In this document: in pieces, positions 2,276 to 55,793 of the stretch
Layout of the letters: each line of letters begins with the position of its first letter
Position numbering within the stretch: the stretch's first letter is position 1
Assembly: GCA_016188965.1 (NCBI GenBank)
Contig: JACPGT010000010.1
Coordinates: 1 to 64,000, forward strand
Origin: Microcaldota archaeon
Lineage (GTDB): Archaea; Micrarchaeota; Micrarchaeia; Norongarragalinales; Norongarragalinaceae
Length of the DNA: 64,000 nt
Direction of reading: 5' to 3'
Translations under genes and position numbers: made by a program
Notes under the pieces: generated by a model
Database searches by the model: none
Told to the model about the DNA's origin: nothing
What the model saw: the letters and a program-made list of their open reading frames with translations, nothing else

Positions 2276-4138
2276 ATGGCATCGCCTGCTTTTTTTCGGC
2301 CCAAACCTATTCCGTTGAACGAAGTGAAGTTTTCCGCCCGGCCGTTGGGCGGTTGGACGCTGCCGGCATTCATTCCAAACCCCCGGCAGGTCAAGCTGTT
2401 CAAGCCCCGCCAGGTCAACTTCCGGACGCTGGAACGGGCGTTTCGTTCGTGGCGAATTCCTGACTCCACGCTCGCCGGAGGCCCGCGGAAGGACGCGCTC
2501 AAGAAGCAGGAAGAGGAGTTGGGGACGCTTTGGGAGGCGTTCCGTTTCATGCGGTATGTCCACGGCTACCATGTCCGTGCCGACGGAACCGTGCTTCCCA
2601 CGCAACTCCGCAAGGTCAAGCGGTTCGGGTTCTTACCGACCCAGTATGAAGAACATCCGTTCAACGCAGCTTTGTACGCCGCGCAGTCCGGCTGCGACTT
2701 GCGGACCGTCATCGCCGCCATGTTGCATGACTGCGTGGAGGACCGGCAGGTCCGTGTCGAGGAAATCCGGGACCGTTTCGGGTCCGACATTGCCACGATG
2801 GTGTCCAAGCTTTCAACGCCGCGGCTGGTCACGGCCGACACTCCGGACGCCCAGCTGGAACGGGTGAAAATCAACGTCGATGGGAAGGAACTGTTCAAGG
2901 AAATCCATGTCGTTTATCCCGAGTCTCGTTACTATCACGAGGAAGTCATCAAGAAACAGGAGAAGAATCTCTTCCAAGACCGGTTGAACCGGGAAGCCAT
3001 CATCCAATTCCAAGCTAACCGCATCTATGGCCCTGCCGAAGGTGATTTCACTGCCCAGGATTTCAACACCATCCTGGTCAAGCAATTCGAAGGCCTCCAC
3101 AACCTTCAGACCATGGAGTACCTGCCGGCGGACGCCTTGCTCAAGCGGGTATCCAAGAGCGTCAGCTATGCCATGTTTTCATTCGACCGCCTCAACCCGG
3201 CGTTCATGCGCTCCGTCCCTCGAAGAGTCAAGGACGTGCTGCTTCGCCTGGATCCTCATTTTAAGGCTCACTTTCCACAGCCCGGGGGTGTTCATCATTG
3301 GTACGCGCGGCTGGGCCCCCGCCGCTGGTTGAACCGGCGACGGCTACTGGCGATTCCCGCCGCAACCGATGACCGGGTCAACGTGCACGAGGTGGCCGAT
3401 CCCGCGCAGGAACGCCTCACGTTGCATCACACGTTCGAGGTGGGCTTTCCTTTTTCGATGGTCGGCGGCGGCCAAGCGGTGTCCGAAGGCCTGTACGCCG
3501 AATTGAAGCGCCAGTTTTCCGCGCATTTCGGCGACGTGGTCAGAATCGAAAAAACCTCCAGCCTCCTGCCCCCGGGTTTGGCCATTTTCCATTTCTTCAA
3601 GGTCGACCTCAGCCGGCTACAGACGCCGAAGGATGGAAATCATTTCAACCGTTATCTTAAACCGGCCTTGGCGCAGACTTTGGCACGGTTCCATATCGAT
3701 CCTTTAATGGACCTTGGCGCCTCCAAGCGGGACCGGATGCTGCGGCCGCTGTTGAACAACGCGTACTACGCCCAGTTTCCCGGCAATTCCCACCACGTCG
3801 CGCTTTTCCTGCCGCACGTGCATTACGGCGGTCCTGCTGCCCGGGATGAAATCGGCCGGATCATCGGGGAATTTCAGCAAACCCAACCGGGCAACTTGTT
3901 GAACGTCGCGGCCGATGCGGCCCATCCATGCGCAACGTTCCACTCGTTTGAGTTGAACTTCAAACCCGGACGCAAGGCTGACCGCGTCAACAACAGCCTT
4001 AAGGACCTCGTGGCTTTTCTGGATCAGGAACGCGACCGCTTCGCCGTTTCAAGACGCGGGTCCATCTCAACTCGCGCAGGCTATGCCGTGCGTTGGATGG
4101 CTGACCAGGTGAAGAAAAAACTCGGGCGCGGACGTTGA
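2276..4138 (+). CDS. RelA/SpoT-like HD-domain protein
   Basis: The 620-residue product has an HD-type metal phosphohydrolase domain near residues 125-160. Its segment HPFNAALYAAQSGCDLRTV followed by IAAMLHDCVED matches the pattern of the (p)ppGpp hydrolase domain of RelA/SpoT proteins (HP, then LLHD-x-VED). A later FEGLHNLQTME resembles the LADRLHNMRTL helix of the same domain. No synthetase motifs were seen, so hydrolysis rather than synthesis of an alarmone-like nucleotide is the reasonable guess. The remaining 300 residues or so are unrecognised. The track start is a GTG at 2273; the ATG at 2276 is chosen because a TATA-like TTTTTAAG lies about 27 nt upstream, suggesting a leaderless mRNA. 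Substrate unknown. Confidence 0.65.
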   Translation: MASPAFFRPKPIPLNEVKFSARPLGGWTLPAFIPNPRQVKLFKPRQVNFRTLERAFRSWRIPDSTLAGGPRKDALKKQEEELGTLWEAFRFMRYVHGYHVRADGTVLPTQLRKVKRFGFLPTQYEEHPFNAALYAAQSGCDLRTVIAAMLHDCVEDRQVRVEEIRDRFGSDIATMVSKLSTPRLVTADTPDAQLERVKINVDGKELFKEIHVVYPESRYYHEEVIKKQEKNLFQDRLNREAIIQFQANRIYGPAEGDFTAQDFNTILVKQFEGLHNLQTMEYLPADALLKRVSKSVSYAMFSFDRLNPAFMRSVPRRVKDVLLRLDPHFKAHFPQPGGVHHWYARLGPRRWLNRRRLLAIPAATDDRVNVHEVADPAQERLTLHHTFEVGFPFSMVGGGQAVSEGLYAELKRQFSAHFGDVVRIEKTSSLLPPGLAIFHFFKVDLSRLQTPKDGNHFNRYLKPALAQTLARFHIDPLMDLGASKRDRMLRPLLNNAYYAQFPGNSHHVALFLPHVHYGGPAARDEIGRIIGEFQQTQPGNLLNVAADAAHPCATFHSFELNFKPGRKADRVNNSLKDLVAFLDQERDRFAVSRRGSISTRAGYAVRWMADQVKKKLGRGR

Positions 4139-28362: not shown

Positions 28363-28449
28363 GTAGATTCCTTTTACAAGGCCTTGCCGCAGCAAATGAC
28401 TTCCTTGATGCGGTGAACCGGTGGCGTTTTGGTTCCCGAAGCCAAGCTA

Positions 28450-28540
28450 TAGCAAAGCTTGCATGTTTCACGACTATTTGGCAAGCTTTGCTAGATAGCA
28501 AACCAAGACTATTTAGTCGGGTTACTTTCTTGGTTTGCTA
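28450..28540. repeat. Tandem-hairpin intergenic element, copy A
   Basis: A 91-bp element between top6A and purL. Hairpin 1 is TAGCAAAGCTTGC (28450-28462) with GCAAGCTTTGCTA (28481-28493), a perfect 13-bp stem with an 18-nt loop. After GA, hairpin 2 is TAGCAAACCAAGA (28496-28508) with TCTTGGTTTGCTA (28528-28540), again a perfect 13-bp stem, with a 19-nt loop. The loops contain CGACTA and TAGTCG, which are complementary. The left half is nearly identical to copy C; part of loop 2 is the reverse complement of loop 1 of copy B. No ORF lies inside it. Confidence 0.85.
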
Positions 28541-28595
28541 TATGCCCGGAAATCCATTTAAACAGTTCCTCCGGCTCCGATTTGTGCGTCCGGGT

Positions 28596-49038: not shown

Positions 49039-50163
49039 TCAACCTCGAAGCATCCGCACGTGGAACAGAGCATCGTCACCGAGGGCGCGAACCTGCGCGT
49101 GTTTGAATCGCTTTTCTTTTCCGGAATAAAGCAGCGCAGCTTGCGGGCCGGACAAAAGAGGCGCCATGACGAACCAGGCCTCGTCCACGAATTCTTGCTC
49201 CAAGAAGGTGGTGGCCGTCTTTCCGCCTCCTTCGACCAGAAGGTTCACGATTCCCCGGCGGCCCAGCTCGTCCAGAAGCCCGTCCAGAGGGACGTGCCCG
49301 CGGGCGTCCGCGTCAGGGGCGGTCCAAACGTCGATTCCGGCTTTGCGCATTTTCTCCCGATTTGTCATAGGGGCGGCGGGCGTGCATGCCAGAAGCAGCG
49401 GGCCGTTGCGGGAAAGCCGCATGCGAGGCATGCGGTCGGCCAACGACAGGCGCGAGTCCAATACGACGCGCAAGGGCTGCAGAGCAGCCGGTTTTTTGTT
49501 GTTGCGGACCGTCAGGCGCGGATCGTCATTGCGGACGGTGTCCTTGCCCACCAGGATGGCGTCGGATTCCTTGCGCAACTGCTGGACGAATCGGAGGGCC
49601 TGCTGGTTGGACAGCCAACGGTGCGCCGACGTAATCCTGCCGTCGAGGCTGGCCGCCATCTTGAGCGTGACGAAAGGGCGGCCAGTGCGGACCCAGTGGA
49701 AGAAGAAGCGGTTCAACTCCTGTGCTTTCGCACGGAGGATGCCTTGCGTCACGGCAATGCCGGCTTTTCGGAGCATCCGGATGCCGCGGCCGTTGACCCG
49801 GGGATTCTTGTCCTTGCAGGCAATGACGGCCCGGGCGATTCCGGCTCCGATGAGTGCCTGCACGCAAGGCGGCGTCTTCTTGTCGCTGTGGCAGCAGGGC
49901 TCAAGGGTGAGGTATGCCGTCGCGCCTTCTGCCTTGTTTCCGGCTTTTTCAAGGGCAATCGCTTCGGCATGGGGTCCGCCGAAGCGTTGGTGCGCGGCCT
50001 GCGCGATGACGCGGCCGCGCTTGACGAGGATGCAACCGACGCGGGGGTTCGGCGCGGTACGCACATGGGCGACGGATTGTGCCAGTTCCAGGGCTTTTTG
50101 CATCCAGGCCTCATCCGTGGCCGTTTGGCGTCGACCCGGTTTCCGGCCTAACCGCGGGGGCAT
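49039..50163 (-). CDS. ribD: Bifunctional riboflavin biosynthesis deaminase/reductase RibD
   Basis: Deaminates and then reduces the pyrimidine intermediate of riboflavin synthesis. Residues 20-150 form the cytidine-deaminase-like zinc domain with [10 protein letters not shown] and [14 protein letters not shown]. The reductase domain follows with [12 protein letters not shown] and [14 protein letters not shown]. At 374 residues it is a normal bacterial-type RibD. The track start is kept, though a later start near the conserved [13 protein letters not shown] is possible. It overlaps the end of ribBA by 16 bp, so the operon order is ribC-ribH-ribBA-ribD. Confidence 0.95.
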
Positions 50164-51395
50164 AGCGACTCGAACCGTGGCGGCGAGCGGAAGCCCAGGA
50201 CGTGGCGCATCTTGCGCCGCTTGGTCTCCATGTAGGCCGCGTTTTCCGGAGTGATGGGTAGTTCCAGCGCTTCCCGTTGGACGACGTGGATGCCGTATCG
50301 GGTGAGGTCCTTGATTTTTTCCGGGTTGTTCGTCAAAAGGCGGATGCGGGGCGCGCCCAATTGCTTGAGGATCTGCGCCGCCAACCAGTACTCGCGCAAA
50401 TCGGGGGCGAATCCCAATTCGACGTTCGCCTCGACGGTGTCGCGGCCCTTGTCCTGCAAGGCATACGCTTTGATCTTATTCTCCAACCCGATGCCGCGGC
50501 CTTCCTGCCGCAAGTAGACCAGGATTCCAAAGGGCTCCGATGCGATGCGGGACATGGCCTCGTCCAGCTGCGCCTTGCAGTCGCAACGCGTTGAGTGGAA
50601 GACTTCGCCGGTGAGGCATTCGGAGTGCACGCGGACCAGCGGCACGTGGCCGTCCGGTTTTCCGCGGACCAAGGCGACCGTTTCATGCGCGTCACCCGGT
50701 GCGCGGAAGACGTGGATGCGGAATTCGCCCATGGCCGTCGGCAGCCGAGCCGTTGCGGTGTGCGAAATGAGTTTCTGGTGCGTCCGGCGGTAATCCAGTA
50801 CTTGTTCGACCGTGACGGTTTTTAGCCGGTGTTTGCGGCCGTAGGCTTGCAGCTGTCGCTTGTCCGCCATGGTGCCGTCGGGATTCATGATTTCGCAGAT
50901 GACCGCGGCAGGGTGAAGGCCTGCCATCTGCGCCAGGTCGCAACCGGCTTCCGTCTGTCCGATGCGCTCCAGAAGGCCGTTTTCGCGCGCCGAGAGCACG
51001 TGCAAGTGGCCGGGTTGCGCGATGTCCTCGGGTTTGGTCTTCGGATCCAACAATAAGCGGATGGCATCGACGCGATCTTTCGCCGACGTGCCGGATCCGC
51101 CGTTTTTGCTGCTGACGTTGACCGCAAACGGCGTCTGGTAGGCTTCCGTGTTCTGCTGGACCATCATGGGGATGCCCAGGTGCTTTCGGCGGGAATTGCG
51201 GATGGCCAGGCAGACGAAGCCCTTGGCTTCGTTGAGCATGAACGATACCTGTTTTTCGGTGATTTTTTCGGCGGCCACCATCAAGTCACCCTCGCCTTCG
51301 CGGTGTTCATCCAGTAGGATGACCGGCTTGCCTGCGCGCAGGTCCTTGAATATGGCGTGCATCGGGTCGTAAACTCGCGCGGGTTTCATTTTCAT
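50148..51395 (-). CDS. ribBA: RibBA: DHBP synthase / GTP cyclohydrolase II, altered DHBP domain
   Basis: Residues 1-205 are the DHBP synthase domain, with [11 protein letters not shown] and [12 protein letters not shown]. Residues 210-400 are GTP cyclohydrolase II, with zinc ligands in [16 protein letters not shown] and [13 protein letters not shown]. The DHBP domain has GQTEAGCDL where the family has GHTEA; that His binds the catalytic metal in known structures, so this half may be weak or inactive. The RibA half looks intact. The 415-residue length is normal. RibA and DHBP synthase supply the two starting compounds of the pathway. Bacterial-type; it replaces the archaeal GTP cyclohydrolase III route. 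Confidence 0.92.
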
Positions 51396-51413
51396 CGTGC
51401 AATTCTGCCTCGA

Positions 51414-51890
51414 TCATTTTTTGCGGAGTTGTTGGCAGCCGAGCAATACGGCGTCCAGTGCGCCTTGCGCGTATTCCTCCACGCGTTCGTGCGCCTGTTC
51501 CAGCGTCACGCCCGGTCCGATGATGCCGATGCCGACGGGTTTTCCGACTTCCAACGATGTCCGGACCAAAGCGTCGGTGGCACTGCGCACTACGACGTCA
51601 TCGTGCGCCGTCGTTCCTTGTATCACAACGCCCAACACTACGACGCCGTCAATGTCTTTGCGCTGCAATAGTTCCTGGGCCAAAAGGGGCGTCTCAAGGG
51701 CACCGCGGGCGAGCCGTTCCCGGGTGATTTTGGCGTCGAATCGGGCGGCACGCTGCTGGACGAGGGTTTGCATCCGTTCGGTCAAAGCGGAGCGGAATAA
51801 GGCGCGGACGATGCCGATGCGCAGGCCCTTCTTGACGCCGATGGCTTCGATTTGGTTGCCGACTATGTCGGACTCACGAAGAGGACTCAT
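51414..51890 (-). CDS. ribH: 6,7-dimethyl-8-ribityllumazine synthase RibH
   Basis: Condenses the pyrimidine and DHBP to make lumazine. The 158-residue protein starts at ATG 51890, which overlaps the ribC stop (ATGA). The N-terminus is a variable strand, followed by GALETPLLAQEL (normally GAFEIPL) and DGVVVLGVVIQGTTAHDDVV, which matches the catalytic GxVIxGxTxHxDYV motif with Asp for Tyr. VTLEQAHERV matches the C-terminal TxEQAxxR. The differences are within what diverged RibH shows, but the catalytic histidine is present. It lies between archaeal ribC and ribBA. Confidence 0.85.
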   Translation of the reverse strand: MSPLRESDIVGNQIEAIGVKKGLRIGIVRALFRSALTERMQTLVQQRAARFDAKITRERLARGALETPLLAQELLQRKDIDGVVVLGVVIQGTTAHDDVVVRSATDALVRTSLEVGKPVGIGIIGPGVTLEQAHERVEEYAQGALDAVLLGCQQLRKK

Positions 51891-52369
51891 GCCGTCAGTC
51901 CTCCAACGTCCTGGCGTCCTTGGCGGAGTCCTTGGCCTGCGCGTTTTACGAACCAACGGGGATCCAACAGCAGTCGAGCAGCGTTGCGCGCGTGCTTGCG
52001 CGTGCGGTCGTCAAAAAGCAAGGCGAGGTCCTGCGCATCCTGGGCTTCAGTCTCATGGACGAAGACTTCGATGATATGCTTAGAAGTCGCGATTTTGGCC
52101 ATCTGGATGCCCAGGCTTGCCTCGTGGGCGCATTGGCGGTCGATGTCGGCGCTTCCGACCATGCCCAAGGCCAAAGCGATGTCGGCGCCGGCGTCCAACT
52201 GGCGTTTGCACTCGACGGCCAGATCCTTGATGCCGGGAACCGTGACGCGGACGGTGCGGACGTCGAAAGCGGACAGCTCTTTTAACGCGGCGCGACCCAT
52301 GTCGAAGCGCGAAAACGTGGTGTCGACTACCGCGACCAAAGGCCGGCGGGTTTTAGAAAGTCTCGTCAT
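51887..52369 (-). CDS. ribC: Archaeal-type riboflavin synthase RibC
   Basis: Turns two lumazines into riboflavin. This is the archaeal family, related to RibH and unlike bacterial RibE. The 160-residue protein shows VAVVDTTFSRFDMGRAAL, RVTVPGIKDLAVECKRQL, DIALALGMVGSADIDRQCAHEASLG and HIIEVFVHETEAQD, matching MJ1184-like enzymes throughout. A TATA-like GCTTAATAACG lies about 30 nt before the ATG. It is the first gene of the operon with ribH, ribBA and ribD, combining an archaeal enzyme with bacterial-type ones. Confidence 0.95.
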   Translation of the reverse strand: MTRLSKTRRPLVAVVDTTFSRFDMGRAALKELSAFDVRTVRVTVPGIKDLAVECKRQLDAGADIALALGMVGSADIDRQCAHEASLGIQMAKIATSKHIIEVFVHETEAQDAQDLALLFDDRTRKHARNAARLLLDPRWFVKRAGQGLRQGRQDVGGLTA

Positions 52370-52445
52370 GCGTGGAACATTAGGGACGTCGACCGTTATT
52401 AAGCCTCACCCAAAATAAAGTAATTACGCGAAAGTGAGTAATAGG

Positions 52446-53033
52446 CTAGTCCAATTGCAGTTCGACCACATCGCCGTCCTTAAGGCGCAGGTGCTTCCGG
52501 AGGAATACAGGGGCCAGGACTTCGACCACGTCCTGCGGGTAGTGCGTCCGATCCGGCACGATGATGGCTCCGGCGGCTTTTTGTCCGATGCGACAAGGAT
52601 AACAGCGGGCACCTCCGTATGTGCGGTTCGTTTCAGTGAATCCGACCAGGGGCCGACCCGGTTTTTGGCGAAGCTGGGCACTGGATGCAAGGCTGGCATT
52701 TTCGCTCAAACGCAGATTCATTGTGCCTGGAAACGGCGTGAACCCCAGCAAGGGCTGGAATTGGCGTTGGTATCCTTTTTTTGACAAATAGTATTTGCCC
52801 TCGCCCACGCCGCGAAAAAGCGTGCCCACGATCCGATTAGAGCCGCTGGAAAGGCCGGAAAAATAGACCCGCCCTGCCGCCGTTGGGGCGTACTCCTTGT
52901 TCTTTGCCACCAATCCGTCTTTACGAAGCTGGCTGAGCCACCGCGAACCGGTCTGCTGGGAGACGTGCAACCGCTGGGCCAAGTCCGCGGAGGAGCGTGC
53001 GGGCTGGCGCAGCAAGTCCAACAAGGCATGCAT
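52446..53033 (-). CDS. ribK: CTP-dependent riboflavin kinase with winged helix-turn-helix
   Basis: Phosphorylates riboflavin to FMN with CTP, an archaea-specific enzyme. The C-terminal domain carries GEGKYYLSKKGYQRQF, LGFTPFPGTMNLRL and CRIGQKAAGAIIVPDRTHYP, as in the family. The N-terminal 70 residues are a winged helix (SSADLAQRLHVSQQTGSRWLSQLRKDGLVAK), which suggests DNA binding and perhaps self or operon control. The start at 53033 (MHALLDLLRQ) is preferred because a TATA-like CAATAAT lies about 26 nt upstream; the track start is 53057, and 53048 is another option. It is transcribed separately, just ahead of the ribC operon in the same direction. Confidence 0.93.
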   Translation of the reverse strand: MHALLDLLRQPARSSADLAQRLHVSQQTGSRWLSQLRKDGLVAKNKEYAPTAAGRVYFSGLSSGSNRIVGTLFRGVGEGKYYLSKKGYQRQFQPLLGFTPFPGTMNLRLSENASLASSAQLRQKPGRPLVGFTETNRTYGGARCYPCRIGQKAAGAIIVPDRTHYPQDVVEVLAPVFLRKHLRLKDGDVVELQLD

Positions 53034-53118
53034 CCACGTCGGCTTCATCCTACGCATTATTGAGTAGGTGCTGTTAAACCCGACGGTTCCGGTCCGAAGG
53101 CTGCGCAGGATCGCAGAA

Positions 53119-53552: not shown

Positions 53553-53861
53553 ATGTCCGAGCTTTGGGATGCCTTCGACTTCATCGCGACGCTAATCGTT
53601 TTCTTCATGTCGTATTCGCGTCTGTTCTACCCGGAAGTCATCAACAACAAAGTCGTCGCCTTGTTGGTGACCATGATCGTCATGTTCGTCTTGGTCATAC
53701 CGTTTCCCATCGTCAAGTGGATCATGTTCGTCGGCCTTTTCAGCTACGGCTTCTTCTGGGGTTTCCGGCCGTGGGAATGGGGCTTCACTGAACAAGAGCC
53801 GGTCGGCGAGCAAGTGGGTGGCTTCGGTCAGCCCTACGTGGCGCACGAACACGACTTATAG
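53553..53861 (+). CDS. Small membrane protein, unknown function
   Basis: The 102-residue product has two to three membrane helices (FIATLIVFFMSYSRLFY, VVALLVTMIVMFVLVIPFPIVKWIMFVGLF) followed by an aromatic SYGFFWGFRPWEWGF segment and a polar tail. The TAG stop codon is at 53859-53861 and is at the same time the first three bases of the hairpin element copy B. It opens a five-gene run to 55650, oriented the same way. Function unknown. Confidence 0.6.
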   Translation: MSELWDAFDFIATLIVFFMSYSRLFYPEVINNKVVALLVTMIVMFVLVIPFPIVKWIMFVGLFSYGFFWGFRPWEWGFTEQEPVGEQVGGFGQPYVAHEHDL

Positions 53862-53949
53862 TCGACCACGAAAGTAACCCGACTTAAGAGTCGTGGTCGA
53901 CTATCTAGCAAACGGCTCGAAAGTCTCGGCGGACTTTCGAGGTTTGCTA
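53859..53949. repeat. Tandem-hairpin intergenic element, copy B
   Basis: A 91-bp element, the same length as copy A. Hairpin 1 is TAGTCGACCACGA (53859-53871) with TCGTGGTCGACTA (53891-53903), a perfect 13-bp stem with a 19-nt loop. After TC, hairpin 2 is TAGCAAAC-GG-CTCGAAAGTC (53906-53925) with GACTTTCGAG-GTTTGCTA (53932-53949), 8 + 10 bp with a GG bulge and a 6-nt loop. Stem 1 differs from copy A in almost every base yet is fully paired. Loop 1 (AAGTAACCCGACTTAAGAG) contains the reverse complement of part of copy A loop 2. Its first three bases are the stop codon of the preceding gene. Confidence 0.85.
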
Positions 53950-54058
53950 TATAGCGTCTATCCGGCCATTGTCCCCAGCCGCCCCGTTTTTTTCTTCGTT
54001 GCGGCCGGCCGTTGGCCTGAAAGCGGGCTATAAAAAGCCGGAATCCGTTCCGTAGTGG

Positions 54059-54367
54059 ATGGATTTCACGTTCCTCTTCATCATCATCCTGATGCTGTTG
54101 GCCCTCAAATCCGGCTTGAGCATCATCGCCGTAGGCCTGTTCATCATCCTGCTGTTCACCTCGAAGAACAAGTGGCTGCTCATCGCGACCCTCATCGGCG
54201 GCGGCTTGGTGGCGTTCGTCAGCTACACCGGCGTCAGTTCGGCCCTGGATGACCCCGCCACATTGGCCGTGCTGGGCGGATTGTTTGTCATCCTCCTGCT
54301 GTTGGCCCGCAACGACACGGAGAGTCCGGCTCCGCAAGGCTACTACCCCGGCGGCGCAATGGGCTGA
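54059..54367 (+). CDS. Small membrane protein, two-helix type
   Basis: The 102-residue product opens with FTFLFIIILMLLALKSGLSIIAVGLFIILLF, a helix-GL-helix unit, then two more hydrophobic stretches (WLLIATLIGGGLVAFVSYTGV, TLAVLGGLFVILLLLARN) and a polar C-terminus. The opening unit resembles those of the genes at 54452 and 54821, so the three may be paralogues. TATA-like CTATAAAAAG lies about 25 nt before the ATG. Function unknown. Confidence 0.6.
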   Translation: MDFTFLFIIILMLLALKSGLSIIAVGLFIILLFTSKNKWLLIATLIGGGLVAFVSYTGVSSALDDPATLAVLGGLFVILLLLARNDTESPAPQGYYPGGAMG

Positions 54368-54451
54368 ACTTTTCCCACTACCCGCATTTTTTGCAGTTTG
54401 GGCGGGCATGGTTCCGTCACCGTTATAAAGTTCGTTCGAGTCACTATCCGT

Positions 54452-54817
54452 ATGAGCCTACTGATTGTCGCGGCCTTGATGGGCATTGCCTATATCCTGC
54501 TTGAATCCGGCCTTCCGTTCTTCGCGCTCATCGCGTTTCTCGTCGCGATTCTTCATGCGTTGACTACACGAAGTTCCGGCGGCCATGCCGGTGCTGCCGG
54601 CCATGGACCGGCTGCACCCCGCCAGCGGCCCGTCATCGTCACCACGACCGGCGGCGACATCCACAACCCCATGAAGATTGCCGTCAAGCACACGTGGGAT
54701 GGTTCGGACGCGTATTCGGACTTCATGTATTACGTGAGCCATTGCATTGCCTGGCCCTTCCGAGTCATATCCCGCATCATCACGGGCCGTTCCGGAAAAC
54801 TACTCAAGGCGCACTAG
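54452..54817 (+). CDS. Small membrane protein, paralogue pair member
   Basis: The ATG at 54452 lies about 27 nt after a TTATAAAG box; the track start at 54398 precedes that box. The 121-residue product has one long or two short membrane helices (SLLIVAALMGIAYILLESGLPFFALIAFLVAILHAL), a Gly/Ala/Pro-rich linker, and a C-terminal amphipathic part (KHTWDGSDAYSDFMYYVSHCIAWPFRVISRIITG). That C-terminal part aligns by eye with KHDWHDYRQFEYSFFNFGSS... in the next gene. The two are probably tandem duplicates and begin 3 bp apart. Confidence 0.6.
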   Translation: MSLLIVAALMGIAYILLESGLPFFALIAFLVAILHALTTRSSGGHAGAAGHGPAAPRQRPVIVTTTGGDIHNPMKIAVKHTWDGSDAYSDFMYYVSHCIAWPFRVISRIITGRSGKLLKAH

Positions 54818-54820
54818 GGC

Positions 54821-55192
54821 ATGAATCTCCTACTGGTTGCAGCATTGGCGGCGGGTGCGTTCATCACCGAGCAAATGGGGTTGACATTTGTCGCCATCCT
54901 GATGCTCATCCTCGCGGTTCTGGTGCTGCTGACGGGTAGCGGTTCGGGTTCAGGGCACGGCGAGAACCCAAATGTAAACATCACCGAGCCGTTCGGACCG
55001 GAAGGACCCATCGTCGTGGAGAACAAGGTGCCGGACGTACCGTACCCGCTATTGCTTAAACTCAAGCACGACTGGCACGATTACCGCCAATTCGAATACT
55101 CGTTTTTCAACTTCGGCTCGTCCATGCACAACGTGGGTAATTTCATCTGGCAGCTTCTTTCGGGCCAACGCCCACCCAAATCCGATCATTAA
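54821..55192 (+). CDS. Small membrane protein, paralogue pair member
   Basis: The 123-residue product has an N-terminal hydrophobic hairpin (NLLLVAALAAGAFITEQMGL, TFVAILMLILAVLVLLTG), a Ser/Gly linker, then a polar domain ending HDWHDYRQFEYSFFNFGSSMHNVGNFIWQLLSG. The layout repeats that of the gene before it. The polar part would lie on one face of the membrane. It follows with a 3-bp gap and precedes the next gene by 11 bp, so they are one transcription unit. Function unknown. Confidence 0.6.
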   Translation: MNLLLVAALAAGAFITEQMGLTFVAILMLILAVLVLLTGSGSGSGHGENPNVNITEPFGPEGPIVVENKVPDVPYPLLLKLKHDWHDYRQFEYSFFNFGSSMHNVGNFIWQLLSGQRPPKSDH

Positions 55193-55203
55193 GCTGATCC
55201 GTC

Positions 55204-55650
55204 ATGGAACGTAACATCTATGGTGGGCTGCTGGGTTTGGCCGTCTTGGGCCTGCTTTTGAACTTCGAATGGCTCTTCTTGACCTTTTTGCTGCTGACGG
55301 CCGGTTTATTCCTTGCGGAACGATTCAGCGCACCGTCCTACTCGAATTATTCCCGTGCCGGGCCGGTCGAGTATTCAGCAGGGCCTGCGCCGATGCCGCC
55401 GGTCAACCAGCAGCCCATCGTCATCCAATCCGCCACCCAGTCTCCTTCAAGCAACATGATGATGGACATGATCAGCAACTTGGTGCAGGAAAGTGCCACG
55501 TATCACCGACCCAACTCACCTTGGAAGAAGATGACGGGCCAGATGGACAAAATCGGCAGCCGGCTGAAGAAGATGGAGCACACCCTGGACCACTTGGAAA
55601 AGCATGCCAAGCAGGCCGATAAGGACGGCCATGGCGGCGGACACCACTAA
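55204..55650 (+). CDS. Membrane protein with C-terminal coiled coil
   Basis: The 148-residue product starts with two short membrane helices (GLLGLAVLGLLLNFEWLFLTFLLLTAGLFLAERF), followed by a Pro/Ser/Gln-rich linker. It ends with an amphipathic helix (MTGQMDKIGSRLKKMEHTLDHLEKHAKQADKDG) likely to form a coiled coil, then a His-rich end. It ends the five-gene run of small membrane proteins; the next element is repeat copy C and a convergent gene. Function unknown. Confidence 0.6.
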   Translation: MERNIYGGLLGLAVLGLLLNFEWLFLTFLLLTAGLFLAERFSAPSYSNYSRAGPVEYSAGPAPMPPVNQQPIVIQSATQSPSSNMMMDMISNLVQESATYHRPNSPWKKMTGQMDKIGSRLKKMEHTLDHLEKHAKQADKDGHGGGHH

Positions 55651-55668
55651 GGCTACAGGCATTGCATA

Positions 55669-55758
55669 TAGGAAAGCTTGCATGTTTCACGACTATTGGG
55701 CAAACGTTTCCAGAGACAAACTAGTCTTGATGGGTTATCGTTCTTTCTTGGCTTGCTA
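55669..55758. repeat. Tandem-hairpin intergenic element, copy C (degenerate)
   Basis: A 90-bp element whose left half, AAAGCTTGCATGTTTCACGACTATT, is identical to copy A over 25 bases, and whose right end (TTTCTTGGCTTGCTA) differs from copy A by one base. Both stems are decayed: hairpin 1 keeps only GGAAA/TTTCC and TTGC/GCAA, and hairpin 2 does not pair well. It lies between the convergent genes ending at 55650 and 55794. It looks like an inactive copy. Confidence 0.8.
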
Positions 55759-55793
55759 TAAAACCGGCGTAGGGTTTTCGGCCGCGTTCCGCT

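Follow-up and report, generated by a model that had tools for sequence, protein, structure and literature searches.

Two 91-bp units in a 64,000-nucleotide stretch of a Micrarchaeota contig (the whole of which is called the window here) raise the question of why the arms of a hairpin should stay paired while their sequence changes, and whether this is the mark of a conserved RNA or of a process acting on DNA. An earlier note on the two units, copies A and B, had held that their first stems have hardly any sequence in common yet are perfectly paired at the same place, and had concluded that structure, not sequence, is kept. The hairpins themselves hold up. Scanning the window for perfect arms of at least 13 bp with loops of 3-30 nt returned exactly three places, all inside copies A and B. 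In first-order Markov simulations of the window, 19 of 20 runs gave no such hairpin and the remaining run gave 1, so the three are not a product of chance. In copy B, TAGTCGACCACGA (53859-53871) and TCGTGGTCGACTA (53891-53903) pair across a 19-nt loop as had been described, and the pairing reaches 14 perfect bp with the addition of A53858/T53904. In copy A, TAGCAAAGCTTGC (28450-28462) and GCAAGCTTTGCTA (28481-28493) form the reported 13-bp hairpin around an 18-nt loop. The unit size of 91 bp is also correct, as measured between TA dinucleotides (Table 1).

Table 1. Copies of the element in the window and the parts of copies A and B.
Feature	Position	Strand	Score
Copy A, complete 91-bp element (28450-28540), TA on each side	28448..28542	-	108.4 bits
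Copy A hairpin 1, homologue of copy B hairpin 1: TAGCAAACCAAGA / loop / TCTTGGTTTGCTA	about 28495..28542	-	
Copy A hairpin 2, the "stem 1" of A in the earlier note	28450..28493	-	
Copy B, complete 91-bp element (53859-53949), TA on each side	53857..53951	+	94.9 bits
Copy B terminal inverted repeat on the left, 27 nt, made up of the outer arm and the conserved motif AAAGTAACCCGAC	53857..53883	+	
Copy B hairpin 1, outer arm, formed by the tip of that repeat	53858..53871	+	
Copy B hairpin 1, inner arm, a perfect inverted copy of the tip	53891..53904	+	
Copy B hairpin 2: TAGCAAAC, GG bulge, CTCGAAAGTC, 6-nt loop, GACTTTCGAG, GTTTGCTA; includes the right terminal repeat	53906..53949	+	
Third copy, decayed, hairpin 1 pairing lost; 1.7 kb from copy B	55667..55760	-	27.5 bits, E 0.0037

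The comparison between the two copies needs to be recast, because copy A is a minus-strand copy (28542->28448), scoring 108.4 bits in that orientation vs 75.4 on the plus strand. Reading both copies in the same direction had set the second hairpin of A against the first hairpin of B; the two stems are not homologous, and this direct register is ruled out. The true counterpart in A reads TAGCAAACCAAGA / AAGTAACCCGACTAAATAG / TCTTGGTTTGCTA on the minus strand and has the loop motif AAAGTAACCCGACT in common with copy B. Placed in register, the homologous stems do not share merely a leading TAG but differ at just 4 of 13 positions. All four differences are compensated on the opposite arm; the compensatory change is therefore real, but its extent had been exaggerated.

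Each end of the element is a terminal repeat of about 27 nt with the pattern TATAGCAA-CC--GAAAGT--CCCGAC, after which its first 13 nt recur in inverted form, so that the element has two hairpins. The outermost ends read TAYAGC/GCTRTA. What had passed for a conserved loop is mostly the inner portion of the terminal repeat, which by analogy with ISY100 (PMC2170065) would be the portion bound by the transposase. The repeats connect the element to the IS630 family. On a Nanohalarchaeota contig (L101), a transposase gene of the IS630 family (ORF 2868-3908; Pfam DDE_3; NCBIfam NF033545, E 4e-62) lies intact between the termini TATAGCAATCCAATGAAGTTTTGCGA and TATAGCAAACCAAGAAAGTAATGCGAC, and the right repeat, TATAGCAAACCAAGAAAGTAATGCGAC, is identical to the end of copy A at 25 of 27 positions. 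Repeats of the type TATAGC---CC--GAAAGT are also present outside the gene, in corresponding places, for most of the transposase's full-length relatives within the class. These IS630 repeats are asymmetric, with AAAGTAAT at one end and AAAGTYTT at the other, and the same asymmetry is seen in the element between hairpin 1 (GTAACCCGAC) and hairpin 2 (GTTTCCCGAC, other strand). The unit is an IS630-derived MITE located between TA dinucleotides. Obvious hairpins like these were not seen in the IS630 elements looked at, which counts against this explanation in that the inner arms would need a source or role of their own.

The element itself contains no transposase gene. A search of its own genome for an autonomous IS630 with the same ends found none, the DDE_3/IS630 transposase (PF13358) had no match in the carrier genomes G000, G001, G002, G008 and G047, the window's own included (MAGs that are 71-90% complete), and the L101 transposase used as query had no match in the first four of these. 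Given five carriers with no IS630 transposase match, mobility would be in trans, would depend on a gene on a missing contig, or would belong to the past. The absent transposase bears on present activity, not on descent. One MITE carrier of the same order (G025) also has a truncated IS630 gene between such repeats (L121, G025:C122:2470-3102).

The element is present in dozens of copies in its own Micrarchaeota genome. Blastn finds 24 places, and the covariance model gives 69 matches, a count in which double matches on plus and minus are left unmerged and many places are matched on both strands. Copies were compared as the sequence stretches around such matches. Copy B recurs in identical form three more times in the same genome, and all four agree over at least 93 bp, with unrelated flanks. 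Beyond this genome, the element is found in three sister species (G001, G002 and G008), in G025 and in a genome of the same class (G047); class-wide, 13 of 301 genomes carry it. Exact matches to the pattern outside the class set include Candidatus Iainarchaeum, Nanohalarchaeota, Peregrinibacteria and rabbit-gut Clostridia. Viral contigs gave no exact pattern match, and a viral origin was dropped. Small elements with TATAGCAA-CC-CGAAARTAA-GCRAC termini occur in rabbit-gut Clostridia MAGs (L084, L093, L115) and in Peregrinibacteria (L087), and the similarity of these termini suggests a wider family of such ends that crosses domains.

Insertion sites provide evidence of movement. Among 80 distinct copies, 79 start with TA and 79 end with TA, and in one case (L019) two different elements are arranged head to tail with a single TA common to both. 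The spacers orthologous to the copy B site align in G002 and G008 and are without the element; in G001, an element of a different subfamily sits in reverse orientation at a distance of about 20 bp. Together with the identical copies in unrelated flanks, this implies that the element has moved. At the empty copy B locus, G008 has TTATAA at the gene end, and the spacer in G002 and G008 is too diverged for a base-exact site. At the copy A locus, G002 aligns on both sides of a gap with ~900 other bases between, and G001 aligns on one side only. ISY100, a member of the IS630 family, inserts at TA with duplication of the dinucleotide (PMC2170065), and TA was presumably duplicated at the present sites as well.

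The covariation of the arms was analyzed in 36 distinct copies aligned in register (MAFFT) and in a second set of 80 distinct copies; because copies are related, the counts in both sets do not represent independent events. In the 36 copies, 97.6% of stem 1 cells are paired vs 77.8% in shuffles, and changes on both sides occur in 11 of 14 pairs. The covariation score is 0.517 vs 0.144 in shuffled alignments (0 of 500 shuffles as high), and slid controls stay at or below 0.107. In the 80 copies, 94.2% of stem 1 is Watson-Crick paired vs 62.9% when the inner arms are dealt out anew. The covariation that the earlier note proposed to look for among genome-wide copies is thus strong in both sets, and stem 1 in further copies is far from being unpaired at the level expected by chance. 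One-sided differences in the stem average ~0.5-0.9 per copy pair at every divergence; double differences rise to about 4. Doubly changed pairs are present even between closely related copies, for which counts are few. Old copies lose their pairing, as in the decayed third copy of the window. A further idea, that stems 1 and 2 of one element are kept different from each other ("orthogonal hairpins"), was rejected: P was 0.02 with 26 combinations and 0.86 with 61.

Does this covariation speak of RNA? On the reading taken from the earlier note, a conserved structure, in RNA or at the RNA level, would be under selection in transcripts. Such a structure would fit covariation far above both shuffled and slid controls, and stable stem-loops are known in MITE transcripts (PMC10969869), but the kind of pairing points elsewhere. 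Among the 1040 stem 1 cells of the 80 copies, G·T is found in 11 and A·C in 21, and in hairpin 2 the counts are 14 and 16, so that there is no preference for G·U. Decayed copies are unpaired, loops are inverted between copies, and a tRNA was the sole match to Rfam at the gathering threshold in the sources searched, with no family for the element. According to a rough ORF caller, the copies occupy tandem, divergent and convergent gaps alike (28/23/18). We consider a conserved RNA very unlikely. Of the proposal that structure is kept rather than sequence, the compensatory covariation in register stands; the sequence is kept too, in the form of the IS630 terminal repeat, and nothing points to a conserved RNA.

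The same distribution over gaps, with copies about equally common in divergent and convergent ones, led us to drop a role as terminator. Were the copies shared transcription terminators, or REP-type repeats that a RAYT (Y1) transposase has spread, their dozens of short intergenic palindromes and the start of copy B at a stop codon would be accounted for. However, the ends are IS630 repeats with TA flanks and not GTAG/CGTC-tagged REPs, and copies A and B have no T-run directly after hairpin 2, which leaves either reading with hardly any probability.

Comparison of individual copies brings out a different type of change. The hairpin 2 loop of one copy (L016) is exactly inverted relative to that of another (L012), and the whole of hairpin 2 in a third (L020) is inverted relative to copy A (score 37 inverted vs 11 direct). 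Polymerase template switching in inverted repeats is known to result in homogenized arms and inverted spacers (PMC8604942), and multibase compensatory changes made in this way have been proposed as the means by which RNA hairpins arise and persist (PMC8794818). Arms that change together and/or loops that are inverted in near-identical copies, the pattern by which template switching is recognized, are found here, and the loop inversion is a signature of template switching in DNA. The missing G·T excess, the doubled changes in close copies, the loop inversions and the decay of old copies are the grounds on which DNA template switching that homogenizes the arms, possibly with selection for DNA hairpins, fits better than a conserved RNA. 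Template switching is the most likely cause of the paired arms.

The covariation by itself does not tell template switching apart from strong selection for hairpins in the DNA. It could be that the same MITE has its arms paired by selection for hairpin folding of its DNA ends, in single strands at the replication fork or in cruciforms, with only foldable copies being mobilized or tolerated. Young copies are paired near perfectly and old copies are not, the extra hairpins that some copies carry inside their inner arms keep nearly perfect stems, and the double-hairpin layout recurs in distant carriers (L087 in Peregrinibacteria; L085 and L086 in Candidatus Iainarchaeum), whereas hairpin 2 is missing from the simple copy L093 in Clostridia. 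Transposition of the IS630 type proceeds by double-strand cut-and-paste and is not known to require hairpins (PMC2170065), and template switching directly explains the loop inversions and the doubled changes in near-identical copies. Selection for folding is possible as the main cause, and clearly the less probable one.

The element also occurs in variant architectures. Single-hairpin copies between TA dinucleotides are represented by L028, L064, L056, L057, L061 and L069. In L057, the outer arm CAAACCAAG is paired with the inner arm CGGGGATTGC, and this copy looks like a recombinant when its arms are compared. Longer copies (L021, L026, L029, L040, L070, L071, L110 and L111) have two to four extra, nearly perfect hairpins, mostly near the inner-arm tip of either hairpin, and intact terminal repeats. 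Where the two hairpins meet, 68 of 78 copies have TC and 6 have TA. A guess is that the element arose from two single-hairpin elements with one TA in common, and that a later mutation of this TA fixed them as a unit. Ordered arrays of four to ~six nearly perfect hairpins with conserved linkers are seen in L042 and also inside L026, L021, L029, L070 and L071; stems differ between arrays yet stay paired. In L042 (G000:C4, about 500-800), the array is apparently on its own, without the ends of the element.

A more far-reaching reading gives the hairpin termini a function: this IS630 lineage would transpose or be copied through a step that acts on folded single-stranded ends, the inner arms would have been acquired and kept for this reason, and nested hairpins would enlarge the DNA fold for mobilization or for gain in copy number across DPANN archaea and some bacteria. 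We regard this as rather improbable.

Around copy B, at 53553-55650 (+), lies a row of small hydrophobic ORFs of 102-148 aa, three of which were scanned with no Pfam match. The stop codon of the first (53553-53861) is supplied or overlapped by copy B. Riboflavin genes occupy 49039-53057 (-) of the window and encode RibD, a fused DHBP synthase/GTP cyclohydrolase II, two lumazine-synthase-like proteins and a CTP-dependent riboflavin kinase with an HTH domain.

Taken together, the element is probably a non-autonomous MITE of the IS630/Tc1-mariner type, with arms matched by template switching and covariation arising as a by-product of DNA copying. This explanation builds on the observed anatomy, the repeat match, the TA flanks, the copy number, the presence and absence in sister genomes, the covariation limited to Watson-Crick pairs and the loop inversions. 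An IS630-family transposase supplied in trans would most likely bind the ~27-nt terminal repeat at each end, excise the element and insert it at a TA dinucleotide, which would be duplicated. MITEs are known to be mobilized in trans (PMC10969869), and we infer the same for this element. With the first 13 nt of each terminal repeat present in inverted form as well, each half can form a hairpin, and can do so on either strand. A mutation in one arm would be followed by rewriting of its partner to match, most likely by a replicating polymerase that switches template within the hairpin, and such switching would homogenize the arms and sometimes invert the loop. The covariation may be reinforced by selection for foldable ends and would not constitute evidence of a functional RNA.

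With dozens of replicate hairpins per genome in which the arms change together, this mobile DNA family of DPANN archaea, the termini of which are matched in Clostridia and Peregrinibacteria, offers a natural test bed for template switching. It also serves as a warning that strong covariation statistics can arise from transposon DNA and not from functional RNA. The terminal repeats provide a handle for seeking the trans-acting IS630 transposase of these reduced genomes.

In its general features, the element resembles the type I MITEs derived from IS630/Tc1-mariner in bacteria and archaea, which are small and gene-less, have IS630 terminal repeats and TA flanks, and are found in many intergenic copies. 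Unlike these, the element has in each terminal repeat an inverted copy of that repeat's tip and so consists of two hairpins. Self-complementarity is kept within each hairpin although the ends diverge from each other, and further hairpins are nested within. In the mitochondrial genomes of fungi and other organisms, double-hairpin elements are mobile two-hairpin units with variable stems that insert into one another, and the present element is like them in all three respects. We know of no TA target or transposon-like ends in the mitochondrial elements, whereas the ends described here belong to an identified IS630 clade. REP/BIME sequences are likewise short intergenic palindromes in many copies, but they are tagged by GTAG/CGTC (PMC3733652), and the element has no such tag and has different ends, with TA flanks and IS630-type repeats. 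Repeats homogenized by template switching, known as quasipalindromes (PMC8604942; PMC8794818), have in common with the element the one-step homogenization of arms and the inversion of the loop or spacer. Unlike those quasipalindromes, the element is a multi-copy transposon, in which many outcomes can be read in one genome.
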